Part shown: in pieces, positions 38,501-64,000 of the stretch
Layout of the letters: every line of letters starts with the position of its first letter
Position numbering within the stretch: position 1 is the first letter of the stretch
Made by a program: the position numbers and the translations under genes
NCBI RefSeq assembly: GCF_964204865.1
Contig: NC_135258.1
Span: 9,601,001 to 9,665,000 of the forward strand
Direction: 5' to 3'
From: Styela clava
Taxonomy: Eukaryota; Chordata; Ascidiacea; Stolidobranchia; Styelidae
DNA: 64,000 nt
Notes under the pieces: generated by a model
Seen by the model: only the letters and a program-made list of their open reading frames with translations
Database searches by the model: none
Told to the model about the DNA's origin: nothing

Positions 38501-38820
38501 AGGGCTATTCAGCTATTTTAACGAAGAAGATCCGCATACAAAACTTCAAAAATATTTGGGTCCGGTCTTTCCAGAAATTATATTTCGGCATCTTCGGCAG
38601 ATGCTTCATATCGCGTCATGCTTGTCTCAATAATAATCTAAATTAATCGTGAGTTTTTTGCTAAAATCTCTCCAATGCCATGGTTGAAATATTTTTCCTT
38701 TGATAAATCGAATTATTTTCTCCGGAGGAATTCAATGATGACGTTATTAGATTGACCTTTTTTGTAGTATTTTGCGCAACTTCATTGTACCGGTACTGTA
38801 TTATTATTACCGATATCGAG

Positions 38821-40378
38821 GGGTAGTTATAAAATGGCTATGTCCCATATGTCCGCTATGTCCCTACTAAAATGGCTATGTCCCTACTAAAATGGCTATG
38901 TCCCATCTGAAATTGCGACTCCGATATTTTCCTACTAAAACGACTATGTCCGCTATGTCCCTATTAAAATGGCTATGTCCCTACTAAAATGGCTATGTCC
39001 CATCTAAAATTGCGACTCCGATATTTTCCTACTAAAATGACTATGTCCGCTATGTCCCTACTAAAATGACTATGTCGGCTATGTCCCTACTAAAATGGCT
39101 ATGTCCGCTATATCCCTATTAAAATGGCTATGTCCCATCTAAAATTGTGACTCCGATATTTTCCTACTAAAATGACTATGTCCGCTATGTTCCTACTAAA
39201 ACGGCTATGTCCCTACTAAAATGGCTATGTCCCATCTAAAATTGCGACTCCGATATTTTCCTACTAAAATGACTATGTCCGCTATGTTCCTACTAAAACG
39301 GCTATGTCCCTACTAAAATGGCTATGTCCCATCTAAAATTGCGACTCCGATATTTTCCTACTAGAACGGCTATGTCCCTACTAAAATGGCTATGTCCCAT
39401 CTAAAATTGCGCCTTCGATATTTTCCTACTAAAATGACTATGTCCGCTATGTCCTTACTAAAATGGCTATGTCCGCTATATCCCTACTAAAATGGCTATG
39501 TCCTATCTAAAATTGCGACTCCGATATTTTCCTACTAAAATGAATATGTCCCTACTAAAATGACTATGTCCGCTATGTCCCTACTAAAATGGCTATGTCC
39601 GCTATATCCCTACTAAAATGGCTATGTCCCATCTAAAATTGCGACTCCGATATTTTCCTACTAAAATGACTATGTCCGCTATGTCCCTACTAAAATGGCT
39701 ATGTCCCTACTAAAATGGCTATGTCCCATCTAAAATTGCGACTCCGATATTTTCCTACTAAAATGACTATGTCCGCTATGTCCCTACTAAAATGGCTATG
39801 TCCCTACTAAAATGGCTATGTCCCATCTAAAATTGCGACTCCGATATTTTCCTACTAAAATGACTATGTCCCTACTAAAATGGCTATGTCCGCTATGTCC
39901 CTACTAAAATGGCTATGTCCCATCTAAAATTGCGACTCCGATATTTTCCTACTAAAATGACTATGTCCCTACTAAAATGGCTATGTCCGCTATGTCCCTA
40001 CTAAAATGGCTATGTCCCATCTAAAATTGCGACTCCGATATTTTCCTACTAAAATGACTATGTCCCTACTAAAATGGCTATGTCCCATCTAAAATTGCGA
40101 CTCCGATATTTTCTGACTATGTCCGCTATGTTCCTACTAAAATGACTATGTCCGCTATGTTCCTACTAAAACGGCTATGTCCCACTAAAATGGCTATGTC
40201 CCATCTAAAATTGCGACTCCAATATTTTCCTACTAAAATGACTATGTCCGTACTAAAATGGCTATGTCCCATCTAAAATTGCGACTCCGATATTTTCCTA
40301 ATAAAATGGCTATGTCCCTACTAAAATGGCTATTTCCGATATGTCCCTACTAAAATGGCTATGTCATCTACTACATTT
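38821..40378. repeat. left MULE terminus: higher-order tandem repeat array
   Basis: The array is built from three related modules. They are a 20-mer GGCTATGTCCCTACTAAAAT, a longer form containing GACTATGTCCGCTATGTCC, and a roughly 48-mer containing CATCTAAAATTGCGACTCCG and ATATTTTCCTACTAAAAT. They combine into higher-order units of roughly 75-125 bp, repeated more than a dozen times with small changes in module order. The end of the array (from about 40,330) is degenerate. Such subterminal arrays are candidate transposase-binding sites. Confidence 0.93.
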
Positions 40379-40514
40379 TTAATATAGCCATGCATATCTG
40401 AGAAAAAAAGCTAGTATATGTCTTGATGCAATTAAAATAAGTTTATTGCTTAGGCATATTAACGAATTGTGTCAAGGGCCGACTCTATCAAGGTCTACAT
40501 ATTTTTAATAGTCA

Positions 40515-42284
40515 TTAATGAAAAATTATATTTTTCGAGTCTTTCTCTTCCTTTTTCAATCCAGCTGTTTGTGATGGAGTTATTGTTTGCAATTTACCAT
40601 CAGTTGATGAACAAAGACGAGGAGGACATATATCAGGGGAAGACAACTGAACACGTTGTAAAAAATCTTTAAAATATTTATTTCGTTCGACTTCCGTCAT
40701 CAGCATCCAAGTGTATACGGACAACGAAAATTGGGCATATGGTCCGTACAACGTGTATGGCCCTTGCTTCAACAGTGCCTTTCTCACATCGGTATACGAC
40801 GACTTGATTATATCACCAAGCATGTGAATTAAATCAGGAAGTTTATGTTGTCTCCAATTGGCAACACATTTCAATACATGGTTTAAGGACTCGTTGTTGT
40901 TATTTGTCCACAGGTATCCATTTGTATGTGACTTTTTTTGCCAAATATTATTTTTAAATAACGGAAGAAATCTTGTTTTGAGGTATCCAACAATACCTTT
41001 GCACCTGGTTTTACAGTACGATACGACTTCTTCAGTCTTTGAATCAAACTCTTTTTCATTTTGGCAATGAAACAAACCGAAAACTTCACTAACAATTGAT
41101 CTCCGGAGGTTTTCACTGGTACCGACCTTATCCTTAAGATAATTTATTAAATTTTCCCTCATGTGTCTGCTGCAAAGGACATGAGTTGAATCCGGGAAAG
41201 AAGATGTGAAAGCACCGTGTAGGGCCGATTCGTCATCAGTACCAACGGTCAAGTTATCCAACTTTCTACCAAGTTTGGATTTTATGTTGGTAAAAAATTC
41301 TGTAAATGTGGATTTGTCAGATTTGTGGTGTAAAAATATAGGACCGAAAAACAATGGGTGTTCACCGGATTTACATGACAGCAAGGAAAGATTTTTGAAA
41401 ACTGTAACTGTGACGTAGACTCGTCCTAAATTGAAAGTTTTATCAATCCCAAGAATAGTTTTACCTGAGCAACAAAACCGCTTCAGATCCAAGCATTGCT
41501 CTTCAAAGAATAAAGTTACATTAACAGATTCCATTTTACTGTGGGTTACTTTTTGTACAAATTCGTTTGTTTGCGTCATGTTAATGACCTCTAATATCTC
41601 GTCAGCGTAATTTTTATGATATATTTTTATTCCTGCTCCCTGCTTTTTCTTTTTTTGATTGAACCTCGCATTTTCGATTTGTCTTAGATTTCTGGGGTTT
41701 TCCTCCGCATGTTGTTGAAGATTAACATAAAGTTTTTTTGCAGTAACGCCTTCACATTTAGATATAATATTTTCCATAACGTCTGTTGATGTTCTTATGT
41801 ACGCCTGTTGGTTTATCTTTGCATTTCCATGGGGTGTATGACCAGGAAATATGCCCTTGTATTCCACTACTGCCACATTCATACCAATGTGGCCATCGAT
41901 CCAAGTGATTCGTCGTTCATAGCCAGTCGGTTGCCGAGCATAATAACGTCCAATTCTCCATATTTCACTCGTTTTGGGTTGTGGCTCAATAACTGGATAT
42001 GACAGTTTTTTTCCGTGGCGCGATCTTATGCAAAATCTCCCCCCTTTCTCATAAATATATTTAACCTCGTCATTTTGAAGTAAATACAGAGCGGAGGTAT
42101 AATTGGTTTGTTTCCAGCTTCCGCAATCGTCTTCGAAAATTTGCTTCACTTTTTTCTCTTTTCTGCGTATGTTTTCGTTGTGATCAACTATGAAATAACA
42201 GTTGTTTTTCTCCCCCGTTGGTATTCTAGGACTAACTTTCACGGTTTTGTTTTTGAACATTTTCAACAATTCTGAAATACCCAA
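40515..42284 (-). CDS. MULE transposase, 589 aa
   Basis: Transposase for the surrounding element, expected to act in the nucleus by DDE-type cut-and-paste. The frame is open throughout. Catalytic-domain landmarks are GIDKTFNLGRVYV (Asp281), NLTVGTDDESAL (Asp350/351), then HVLCSRHMRENL (the Cys/His pair at 371/374 typical of MULEs) and TNNNNESLNHVLK (Glu465). The N-terminal 200 residues are basic and likely DNA-binding, and the C-terminal tail is Lys/Ser-rich. The listed Met may not be the true start. The same frame is open upstream for about 18 more residues (DEGWHKLPFGIFL and beyond), overlapping the 3' end of the PHD ORF in another frame. The full catalytic set and absence of stops suggest it may still be active. 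Confidence 0.9.
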   Translation of the reverse strand: MGISELLKMFKNKTVKVSPRIPTGEKNNCYFIVDHNENIRRKEKKVKQIFEDDCGSWKQTNYTSALYLLQNDEVKYIYEKGGRFCIRSRHGKKLSYPVIEPQPKTSEIWRIGRYYARQPTGYERRITWIDGHIGMNVAVVEYKGIFPGHTPHGNAKINQQAYIRTSTDVMENIISKCEGVTAKKLYVNLQQHAEENPRNLRQIENARFNQKKKKQGAGIKIYHKNYADEILEVINMTQTNEFVQKVTHSKMESVNVTLFFEEQCLDLKRFCCSGKTILGIDKTFNLGRVYVTVTVFKNLSLLSCKSGEHPLFFGPIFLHHKSDKSTFTEFFTNIKSKLGRKLDNLTVGTDDESALHGAFTSSFPDSTHVLCSRHMRENLINYLKDKVGTSENLRRSIVSEVFGLFHCQNEKEFDSKTEEVVSYCKTRCKGIVGYLKTRFLPLFKNNIWQKKSHTNGYLWTNNNNESLNHVLKCVANWRQHKLPDLIHMLGDIIKSSYTDVRKALLKQGPYTLYGPYAQFSLSVYTWMLMTEVERNKYFKDFLQRVQLSSPDICPPRLCSSTDGKLQTITPSQTAGLKKEEKDSKNIIFH

Positions 42285-42319
42285 GAAAATACCAAACGGA
42301 AGCTTATGCCAGCCCTCGT

Positions 42320-42706
42320 CTACAGTGTTTTGGTCAGCATTTGCTCCTGCTCAGCTATTTCTTTCAGGAATTTATATACATTTTTGGTATCAAAACTCAC
42401 ACGATCAATTTTTTTCATAACTCTTCTCATCGACACCTCGAAATCATAGCCATGGTCAAGAAAAACACAAGATTTACAATAGTAAGATAGATGTTTTTCT
42501 CCCCATTGTTGCCGTAATTCGGTTTCTATCCGGGCACAATCGAAATGGCACCAGCGTTCACAACCAGAACATTCAATGCAACCAGTTGAATAATCCAAAC
42601 CGCAAAACAAGCATTTGTATGATGACTGATACATACCTCGATCCGGCAGAAATGAAAAAAATCGTTGTGCCAGCGTCGACAAATACAACATGGTGCCAAC
42701 TCGCAA
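42320..42706 (-). CDS. PHD-finger ORF of the MULE
   Basis: A 128-residue frame with Cys/His spacing of a C4HC3 PHD finger: CLFC (32,35), C-I-E-C-S-G-C (43-49), W-C-H-F-D-C (His54, Cys57) and YYCKSC (77,80). A basic helical tail follows, ending MLTKTL. PHD fingers read histone tails, so this part may target or tether the transposase to chromatin. It ends where the transposase frame is already open, so a -1/+1 shift or a tiny intron could fuse the two into one protein. Equally, they may be two genes or a gene broken by one indel. The internal Met25 (MYQSSYK) is an alternative start. Confidence 0.7.
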   Translation of the reverse strand: MRVGTMLYLSTLAQRFFSFLPDRGMYQSSYKCLFCGLDYSTGCIECSGCERWCHFDCARIETELRQQWGEKHLSYYCKSCVFLDHGYDFEVSMRRVMKKIDRVSFDTKNVYKFLKEIAEQEQMLTKTL

Positions 42707-42935
42707 TAAAAAGATACCACACTCATGAATTTTCCCAGCATAAACAATAAATGTGTTTTGCTAAATAAATTCTAAATTATACGCAGTCCAACAAGCACTT
42801 TAAAAATGCTATCTTAATTTTTGATAATTTCCTTGTCTCTTTCTTCTTTACGGTATAGTCATACTATGTGGCAACGTTGGGAAAACTAGCTTGGAAATGT
42901 TCTTTGTGACGTCACTAATACGGAATATATATTTA

Positions 42936-43804
42936 CGGGGTGGTCCAAGGTTGTCGCCTCGCGGGTCACAAAATTACTTTTGCATTGTTCGCGGGCCACA
43001 ATAGTGCCACGAATAGGTAAACAGTGCAATACAAAACAAACACTTTTATTGTGCAAATACATAGTTATCACTCAGACATAGCCATCACAGGCTAATAGAA
43101 TCCGCATTCGATTTTTAGTTTTCTATGATGCCTACCGTGTTTCCGCGAAAATAAGACAGTGTCTTATTTCAATTTTCTTTCGAAAAATATCACTAGAGGT
43201 TATTTTCGGGGAATGTCTTATAATTTTATTCATCAAAAACAAAATTAGAAAGTACAGAATTAGGAGATTTTCAAATAAAAAAAAAAAATATTGAAACCGA
43301 TATCCATTTACTTAAATGACACGTTTTCCTCTCCCACACGTTTTAGATTAGGTAATCATTTATAACGTATGGGAGAGATTTCTTGCTATCGACCAGGTAA
43401 AAAAAAAATTCGCGTTATTGACTAGGTCTTATTGGGGAGGACTTATATTAAAATCAATCCTAAAATTTAGGCTAGGTCTTATTTTTAGGGTAGGTCTTAT
43501 TTTCGGCGAAACACGGTATATATATTGTTAGCATATATTCCCGAACAAAAAGATAGAAAGCCAGATAACGATTTAGACTGCCAAGCACATCATTCAACTT
43601 CGCTAGTTGCCTCAGCTAGCCATAACACTAGTCAATTCAGTGACATTATTGATGTAACAAAATGTCAAAAGTTTTTTCTATTTAATTTTATTACGAAACA
43701 ACACGAAATGCGATTTTTTGATTACTCTCCGAATGTGACGCGGGCCACAGATAATAAAGCGGCGGGCCACATGTGGCTTGCGTGCCTGGGTTTGGATCAC
43801 CTTG
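42936..43804. mobile_element. hAT-like insertion inside the MULE
   Basis: The left end CGGGGTGGTCCAAGG and the inverted right end CAAGGTGATCCAAACC resemble the hAT ends at 35.19 kb. Subterminal 'gcgggccaca' and 'cgggccacatgtggcttgcg' motifs are of the same type ('GTGGCCCGC'). The flanking 8 bp do not match convincingly, so the ends are approximate. About 380 bp of its length is a nested TA-flanked element. Confidence 0.6.
43135..43516. mobile_element. 382-bp TIR element nested in the hAT copy
   Basis: The inverted ends are CCGTGTTTCCGCGAAAATAA (left) and, on the other strand, CCGTGTTTCGCCGAAAATAA (right). Each is flanked by TA, as for Tc1/mariner-type insertion. Repeats of 'AAAATAAGAC', 'GTCTTATT' and 'TAGGTCTTATT' continue inward. 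It contains no transposase and is the innermost of three nested layers. Confidence 0.82.
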
Positions 43805-44074
43805 ATATCGACCTTATAGGTAAGTTTTAAACAAAATATTAACTACTACCATTCAATTTATTTTGACATTCTAGAATAGTTGATTTTAAAAATGTGCAAA
43901 TTTTAAATCAAAATTAGAACTTGAAAAATTGCATCTATAGTCTAGACTCTAGAATCTAGATACAAAGTAACAGTTGATTTGATGTTAATTTCAAAGTCTC
44001 TCTTCTTAACCCTACGTCACAATTGATTTTGTGGTGATGATCATGTTCGATATAAATCTATCAATTTTGATCCG

Positions 44075-45499
44075 ATATTCCAGACATAGCTATTTTAGTT
44101 GAAACTAATCGGAATCGCAATTTTAGAACATAGCCATTTAGGACTTTGCCATTTAAGTAGGGACATAGCCATTTTAGTAGAGATATAGACATTTCAGTAG
44201 GAATATAGCGGACATAGCCATTTTAGTAGGGACATAGCGGACATAGTCATTTTTAGTAGGAAAATATCGGAGTCGCAATTTTAGATGGGACATAGCCATT
44301 TTAGGAGGGACATAGCGGACATAGCCATTTTAGTAGGGACATAGCGGACATAGTCATTTTAGTAGGAAAATATCGGAGTCGCAATTTTAGATGGGACATA
44401 GCCATTTTAGTAGGGACATAGCGGACATAGCCATTTTAGTAGGGACATAGCGGACATAGTCATTTTAGTAGGAAAATATCGGAGTCGCAATTTTAGATGG
44501 GACATAGCCATTTTAGTAGGGACATAGCGGACATAGTCATTTTAGTAGGAAAATATCGGAGACGCAATTTTAGATGGGACATAGCCATTTTAGTAGGGAC
44601 ATAGCGGACATAGCCATTTTAGTAGGGATATAGCGGACATAGCCATTTCAGTAGGGACATAGCGGACATAGTCATTTTAGTAGGGACATAGCGGACATAG
44701 TCATTTTAGTAGGAAAATATCGGAGACGCAATTTTAGATGGGACATAGCCATTTTAGTAGGGACATAGTCATTTTAGTAGGAAAATATCGGAGTCGCAAT
44801 TTTAGATGGGACATAGCCATTTTAGTAGGGACATAGCGGACATAGTCATTTTAGTAGGGACATAGCGGACATAGTCATTTTAGTAGGAAAATATCGGAGA
44901 CGCAATTTTAGATGGGACATAGCCATTTTAGTAGGGACATAGCCATTTTAGTAGGAAAATAGCGGACATGGCCATTTTAGTAGGGACATAGCGGACATAG
45001 TCATTTTAGTAGGGAAATATCGGAGTCGCAATTTTAGATGGGACATAGCCATTTTAGTAGGGACATAACGGACATAGTCATTTTAGTAGGAAAATATCGG
45101 ATTCGCAATTTTAGATGGGACATAGCCATTTTAGTAGGGACATAGCGGACATAGTCATTTTAGTAGGAAAATATTGGAGTCGCAATTTTAGATGGGACAT
45201 AGCCATTTTAGTAGGGACATAGCGGACATAGCCATTTTAGTAGGGATATAGCGGACATAGCCATTTCAGTAGGGACATAGCCATTTTAGTAGGGATATAG
45301 CGGACATAGCCATTTCAGTAGGGACATAGCGGACATAGTCATTTTAGTAGGGACATAGCGGACATAGTCATTTTAGTAGGAAAATATCGGAGACGCAATT
45401 TTAGATGGGACATAGCCATTTTAGTAGGGACATAGCGGACATAGCCATTTTAGTAGGGACATAGCGGACATATGGGACATAGCCATTTTATAACTACCC
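44075..45499. repeat. right MULE terminus: inverted higher-order repeat array
   Basis: The same modules as the left array, in reverse complement (ATTTTAGTAGGGACATAGCC, GGACATAGCGGACATAGTC, and AATATCGGAGTCGCAATTTT with ATCGGAGACGCA variants). Module order differs from the left array away from the last 70 bp or so, while the outermost bases match closely. The ends are therefore kept alike while the interiors turn over. The inner edge (44,075-44,200) is degenerate. Confidence 0.93.
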
Positions 45500-45663
45500 A
45501 TATCGAGGGACAACATTGTTCAGACGTCTCCCAAAGGAGGGGTGTCTGATCATTAGTAAAATGGCTGAATGGGTTTCTCTGAAACAACACAATGTCATTC
45601 AATCTGTATATCGATACCGTAGTGTGAAATTCTTGGAAATTGGATAGTGTGCCGTACATAGTA

Positions 45664-63151: not shown

Positions 63152-64000
<849 letters not shown>

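Follow-up and report, generated by a model that had tools for sequence, protein, structure and literature searches.

How can a DNA transposon keep ends that its transposase recognizes, when most of the length of these ends is made of tandem repeats that differ from copy to copy? The question is raised by a mobile element of the ascidian Styela clava, located in a stretch of 64,000 nucleotides (NC_135258.1, positions 9,601,001 to 9,665,000; here C10:9601001-9665000), called the window below. It was compared with a genome of 376.6 Mb in 379 contigs. The element spans 6,679 bp, from the tip GGGTAGTTAT at 38821 to the tip ATAACTACCC at 45499. With a probability of about three in four, we read it as a cut-and-paste Mutator transposon with Foldback-type ends, in an internally deleted and probably non-autonomous copy, the terminal arrays being iterated putative transposase-binding sites. 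The main new point is that three families of this genome appear to have the same layout, terminal inverted repeats (TIRs) built of arrays that iterate a motif found near the tip, in otherwise unrelated sequence.

The limits of the element are sharp. A perfect 8-bp target-site duplication (TSD), ATATCGAG, stands on both flanks, the outer TIR runs over 63 bp without mismatch, and the arrays behind it, unlike in their module order, measure 1,546 bp on the left and 1,418 bp on the right. This agrees with the initial annotation, made from the letters of the window, which had noticed perfect 8-bp duplications, inverted repeats of about 1.4-1.55 kb and a module order that differs between the ends while the outermost ~70 bp match.

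The same ends recur in the genome. With up to two mismatches allowed, the terminal 25-mer is matched 57 times (the reversed pattern has none); 24 of these matches form 12 facing pairs and 9 lie in other fetched loci, the remaining 24 being left out of the locus analysis. A separate genome-wide search gave 437 matches in total. A perfect 8-bp TSD is present in 11 of the 12 paired-end elements (10 of 11 pairs, together with a 44.9-kb pair on C6, where it reads CTTATGTC), as is expected of the Mutator superfamily with its TSD of ~8-11 bp; the sole pair without one is a 1.5-kb pair at C14:13979938. Once joined, the flanks of the window element retrieved 354 candidates, 40 of which were scored: two are the window's own flanks and all 38 others cross the junction, at ~80% identity. 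These are related (paralogous) empty sites within a dispersed repeat, and at L038, the only one aligned base by base, the sequence is continuous through ACCGATATTGAGGGACAAC. The insertion site (38671-38820 and 45508-45657) is itself a piece of this dispersed repeat, found in at least 38 other places at ~80% identity. Among the copies, that at C2:26330734-26348069 (L009, L010) reaches 17.3 kb and includes, on the other strand than the transposase, an open frame of 1,366 aa, by eye an apparently nested retroelement. Viral contigs were also searched for relatives: 43 stretches fit a pattern and none was confirmed.

Do the arrays belong to the element, or did a smaller transposon insert into a satellite of the host, or capture one? 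A satellite-like aspect is there, the 106-bp higher-order unit of the C17 copy described below spanning nearly 6 kb. Yet the 28-bp module of the arrays, found 375 times in the genome (never with the reversed pattern), lies inside fetched element loci in 329 cases (46 were not located), and among the matches listed (100 of the 375, exact, on C1 and C2) all are inside four loci with transposase matches or at most a few kb away from them. The TSDs sit outside the arrays, the paralogous empty sites run on without an array, and in the fetched loci no long array was seen without element ends or transposase relics. With a TSD at 11 of 12 pairs, with empty sites, and with 329 of 375 modules inside fetched element loci, the arrays are not a host satellite; this extremely improbable alternative is rejected on the module locations, the empty sites and the TSDs outside the arrays. 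Thus neither of the checks proposed with the initial annotation, for other copies with the same ends and for a satellite of the host, refuted the interpretation as an element.

What are these arrays made of? Tandem Repeats Finder reports overlapping arrays in both ends, with periods including 20, 29, 48, 97, 106 and 126. A parse by dynamic programming resolves them into three units, a 20-mer CTACTAAAATG(G/A)CTATGTCC, a 9-mer GCTATGTCC and a 28-mer CATCTAAAATTGCGACTCCGATATTTTC (allowing the 9-bp 't' module gave spurious matches in non-array DNA, and the arm figures that follow refer to the contiguous array only). The 9-mer repeats the end of the 20-mer, so that 20+9 makes a 29-bp module and 20+28 a 48-bp module: the nested modules of 20, 29 and 48 bp first proposed do exist as periods, the latter two being reducible to the shorter units. 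There is also a higher order, the unit after a 28-mer being the GAC form of the 20-mer for 11 of 12 in the right arm and for 12 of 15 in the left. Chance repeats are ruled out by the reversed-pattern controls of the 25-mer and 28-mer searches and by shuffling: CTATGTCC occurs 54 times in one arm and 56 times in the other, 200 shuffles giving 0.03 on average. The 28-mer looks like a diverged version of the 20-mer followed by the 9-mer (score 10.0), and the last 16 bp are common to the terminal 25-mer and the 20-mer (score 12.0), each score being reached by none of 5,000 shuffles. The modules therefore look like variants of the element tip, each of the 20-, 9- and 28-bp units being similar to the terminal 25 bp.

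The arms were compared in seven copies (four older pairs and the C6 pair being left out), the coding regions with six relatives (without C17). Arms on the side of the gene 3' end extend over 594-2,864 bp, and the opposite ones over 1,087-5,888 bp. Five of the six other copies are very close to the window in their coding sequence (proportions of synonymous and nonsynonymous differences, pS 0.003-0.011 and pN 0.006-0.007), and the arms of the window element and these five measure 1.5-2.9 kb and 1.1-3.9 kb. In the seven copies the outermost 30 bp have a mean identity of 0.995 in each comparison class, and the innermost 60 bp have identities of 0.96 and 0.88 within an arm type and 0.68 between types. 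With a fixed outer 30 bp and an arm-specific inner 60 bp, the arms therefore change between fixed borders. Homogenization between the two arms of one copy was not seen in the module similarities of the seven copies and is rejected, the similarity between arm types being much the same within copies (0.76) as between copies (0.75); within arm types it is 0.79 and 0.92. The satellite-like turnover in a MULE (Mutator-like element) end that had been suggested is thus supported by the other copies, their 8-bp TSDs, the empty sites and the varying arm lengths.

Some copies show more unusual arms. At C17:7671561-7696784 (L016-L018), a 25-kb copy has one 5.9-kb arm made mostly of a 106-bp higher-order unit. 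At L014 (C2:14493000-14502000) one arm contains the terminal 25-mer three times, at distances of 980 and 1,212 bp, with array sequence joined to the inner two copies, and at two other loci (L033, L034) element ends stand 988 and 978 bp apart. In these cases a segment of the arm that takes in the tip seems to have been duplicated.

Is the window copy still able to move by itself? It had been described as an intact element with an intact 589-aa transposase. The frame is indeed open and retains D281, D350, C371-x2-H374 and E465, with a MULE-type DDE domain just over the Pfam cut-off (28.0 bits against 27.6, E 3.1e-6; the longer relatives, at 26.1 and 26.7 bits, are slightly under it). The gene as a whole is another matter, and transposase matches elsewhere in the genome fall in longer open frames. 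In the relative on C4, the least damaged one, a single 975-aa frame, which stops slightly short of the end of the match, joins a PHD-type zinc finger (spacing by eye), an OTU-type motif (DGNCLYRAV ... NHFVPLL) and the transposase; on C13 the PHD, OTU and MULE parts also share one frame, open over 841 aa before a frame change. Elsewhere (C19, C2:17160311 and others) the genes are interrupted by stops or frame changes, and the C2:26330734 copy has a 940-aa frame without the OTU cysteine. Each of C13, C19 and C2:17160311 has, between its PHD part and its transposase part, 721 bp that are missing from the window; CTGA is found at either breakpoint, and in the window the two parts now stand in different frames. 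The window copy is thus damaged, its OTU core deleted and its gene split, the 589-aa frame being the rear part only and the 128-aa 'PHD-finger ORF' (open reading frame) coming from the front of this broken gene. A functional two-gene element, making a separate PHD protein and a 589-aa transposase, would account for both frames being open and for the D, D and E residues; it is very unlikely, and is rejected, because C4 and C13 join both parts in one frame with the OTU domain between them, and because the 721 bp missing from the window come from that very place, the breakpoints showing microhomology. The element is therefore not intact. The window copy, without the full enzyme, would need transposase in trans. 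Table 1 collects the coordinates.

Table 1. Parts of the element and of its target duplication, in window coordinates
Feature	Position	Strand	Remark
TSD, left copy, ATATCGAG	38813..38820	.	
Terminal 25-mer GGGTAGTTATAAAATGGCTATGTCC, left end	38821..38845	+	57 genome matches, <=2 mismatches; reversed-pattern control 0
Left arm array, side of transposase gene 3' end	38821..40366	+	82 modules
589-aa open frame, transposase part of broken PHD-OTU-MULE gene	40515..42284	-	
E465	40890-40892	-	beyond Pfam MULE match
Pfam MULE domain, residues 279-377	41154..41450	-	D281 41442-41444; D350 41235-41237
128-aa open frame, PHD-finger piece of broken gene	42320..42706	-	Pfam PHD below cut-off at 42467-42613
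Junction of 721-bp internal deletion, CTGA 4-bp microhomology	42334..42337	-	OTU core gone, frame changed
Right arm array, side of gene 5' end	44082..45499	-	80 modules, other order than left
Terminal 25-mer, right end	45475..45499	-	
TSD, right copy, ATATCGAG	45500..45507	.	

How firm are the two domains that accompany the transposase? Pfam OTU is weak and under the cut-off in C4 (E 0.01), and over it in the second family (E 2.5e-6) and the third family (E 5e-6) introduced below; a profile of five proteins compared with the PDB retrieves OTUD1 (E 2.7e-6) and OTUD5 (E 1.7e-4). For the PHD part the same profile yields a chain of CXXC-type zinc finger protein 1 (E 0.0012), PHD chains being weak, and Pfam PHD remains below the cut-off in the window piece (E 3.1e-4), with 0.07-0.09 in two relatives; the C4HC3 spacing was read by eye. 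No Pfam PHD match is listed for the proteins of the second and third families. A literature search for OTU, MULE and PHD finger together found no publication, and looser searches led, among the papers listed, only to Ginger and MULE papers. The Ginger paper proposes that OTU-like protease domains assist repair after transposition (PMC2836005).

The same genome holds two sibling families. The second (C10:8546323) codes for a protein of 992 aa, with 34% identity to that of the window element, in an element of ~6,050 bp from tip to tip (the tip is uncertain by ~3 bp); its TIRs of ~970 bp, 93% alike, contain 166-167-bp tandem repeats with CCGGAACGG 10 and 9 times per arm. The third, in its C18 copy, codes for 908 aa (32% identical) in an element of 8,147 bp, with TIRs of 752 bp, 89% alike, containing 10-bp and 123-bp repeats, and a 9-bp TSD, AAAAATTCC, in the one copy tested; five 908-aa open frames were found among the matches listed, and this family may still move. 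Pfam MULE scores 28.1 bits in the second family and 16.5 bits in the third. The D, D, CxxH and E residues (D281, D350, C371-x2-H374 and E465) are invariant across the three families, and in all of them the distance from the tip to the first occurrence of the repeated motif is 11-18 bp (position 14-18 in the two siblings).

How might such ends work? After the model of the MULE superfamily, a DDE transposase would cut at the tips and insert with an 8-bp stagger; the full-length PHD-OTU-MULE enzyme, made elsewhere, would recognize TAAAATGGCTATGTCC near each tip. The arrays would then be iterated, slightly diverged copies of the TAAAATGGCTATGTCC site, which, if Galileo is a guide, may raise end occupancy or specificity, and a role as binding sites is plausible. 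Slippage, gap repair or unequal exchange would make them grow and shuffle without leaving their arm, between two parts that presumably stay fixed, the outermost 30-60 bp and an inner edge specific to the arm.

Several observations weigh against this account. Per-position counts inside the modules reveal no binding core distinct from spacer (by eye, without statistics). The module order of left-type arms of different copies is barely more similar (0.79) than that of different arm types (0.75-0.76), and it is therefore chiefly by their inner edges that the arm types can be told apart. In the third family, an ungapped stretch of 6,348 bp that includes one array is 99.84% identical between two copies, so that fast turnover is not general, and array sizes can be wrong in assemblies. 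The flanks of the second family have no clean duplication and are ambiguous (CTTTGTC is in both, offset on one side), and the MULE match of the third is weak (E 0.011, under the cut-off). Finally, the ratio dN/dS of nonsynonymous to synonymous substitution rates gives little sign of constraint, at 0.52-2.60 between the window and five relatives, on 10-14 changes each, and 0.48 for C6, on 34 changes. Could the arrays then be passive, having arisen when slippage or unequal exchange multiplied a short TIR, and spreading only because they ride on the element, with no gain for transposition? The lack of visible positional constraint inside the modules, the variation in arm length among close copies and the duplication of the tips themselves inside arrays would all fit. 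By contrast, in each of three families with different modules the iterated motif begins at 11-18 bp from the tip, and all 12 parsed pairs of the window family keep modules at both ends, even if two older pairs have arms of only 9-11 modules. We consider passive arrays rather unlikely and retain iterated binding sites as the better account. A bolder proposal goes further: in a clade of OTU-bearing MULEs, each family would have made its own transposase-binding motif into end arrays, motif and transposase co-evolving, with the OTU protease as part of the transposition machinery. This is tentative, and we would not bet on it; if true, such families could serve to test whether array length works as a dial of the transposition rate.

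A few other features of the window and of the genome may be recorded. Inside the element, a short inverted repeat at 43134-43518 (ACCGTGTTTC..GAAAATAAGAC and complement) resembles, by eye, a nested miniature inverted-repeat transposable element, and different parts of this stretch are absent from two other copies. At the edge of the window, a 282-aa open frame (63152-64000, minus strand) is presumably the C-terminal part of a SERCA-type calcium ATPase. No RNA family reached the gathering score within the window. A single Glyco_hydro_6 match is present in the genome, at C9:16179895-16180164 (L042), with E 1.5e-6, a hint of a tunicate host. Among other markers of the host, COX1 had no match, Chitin_bind_4 had none either (nor did its control match anywhere), and PRDM2_PR matched in four places, which was of no help in placing the host.

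Where does the element stand among known systems? It is of a sort already described, a Foldback/Rehavkus-like Mutator transposon, having the long inverted termini of tandem modules, varying between copies, that define Foldback. The FB and FB-NOF elements of Drosophila have modular inverted termini of nested short repeats with 10-, 20- and 31-bp units, and the window family is akin to them in this respect, by description rather than by sequence. What the Styela clava genome brings is a natural series, one family with arms of ~0.6 to 5.9 kb in seven copies, beside two siblings with unrelated modules; the 106-bp higher-order array grown in an element end is a possible step towards satellite DNA. 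Rehavkus, known from insect and annelid hosts, is MULE-related, with a PHD finger, a minisatellite before the 3' TIR and a 9-bp TSD (PMC6446971), and the inverted termini of Rehavkus-1_TC of Tribolium contain tandem units of 164 bp (PMC10218199). The window family resembles Rehavkus in the MULE-related transposase, here with a putative PHD finger, and in the tandem repeats of the termini (PMC6446971), a minisatellite in or beside the terminal repeat being present also in both siblings. The TSD differs, 8 bp instead of 9 bp (the third family, in one copy, has 9 bp), and the window family has an OTU domain, of which the available descriptions of Rehavkus make no mention, this comparison being by description, not by sequence. 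Because its TSD is 8 bp and its PHD finger weakly supported, the family is not filed as Rehavkus.

Two other Foldback elements, Tm1 and Tetris, are built on the same plan. Tm1, a Mutator/Foldback element of root-knot nematodes, likewise has a MULE transposase within composite TIRs, variable short tandem repeats and non-autonomous derivatives; unlike the window family it has a Phantom-type FLYWCH transposase of 496 aa, ~14-bp repeats and mostly a 9-bp TSD, and its available descriptions mention neither PHD nor OTU (PMC3169594). The FLYWCH or SWIM zinc finger that marks Phantom ('none' being given for some members) is not a feature of the window family, neither being reported for the window and four relatives with a threshold of E 1; nor are the THAP domain and P-type transposase of Galileo and P, absent at that threshold from the same comparison. 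Galileo, a Foldback-like element of the P superfamily, has long TIRs with internal tandem repeats: THAP binding was mapped by footprinting to ~70 bp from the end, and the repeats were found to contain further sites (PMC3688188); its transposase is of another superfamily, and the likeness is one of iterated sites alone. The same 2013 paper called the binding-site role of Foldback and Phantom terminal tandem repeats untested (PMC3688188). Tetris, a Foldback element of Drosophila virilis, has TIR tandem repeats traced to the outer TIR and 8-10-bp TSDs, and differs in having no known transposase and repeats of ~220 bp, which build satellite-like arrays beyond the element too. With a bearing on FB and FB-NOF, the same paper cites Badal et al. 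(2013) among the cases in which foldback elements are not placed in Mutator (PMC4079207). An OTU domain joined to a transposase is found in MuDR-6_HM of Hydra, listed without TIR (PMC6446971), and in OTU-bearing Ginger1, which is of another superfamily (PMC2836005). The distinct MULE family of the initial annotation is fair at the family level; its architecture is the known one of Foldback and Rehavkus, and the 'PHD-finger ORF' invoked to define it is a piece of a broken gene. It is the OTU domain with a putative PHD finger, together with the 8-bp TSD, that marks the window family out within the Foldback architecture.

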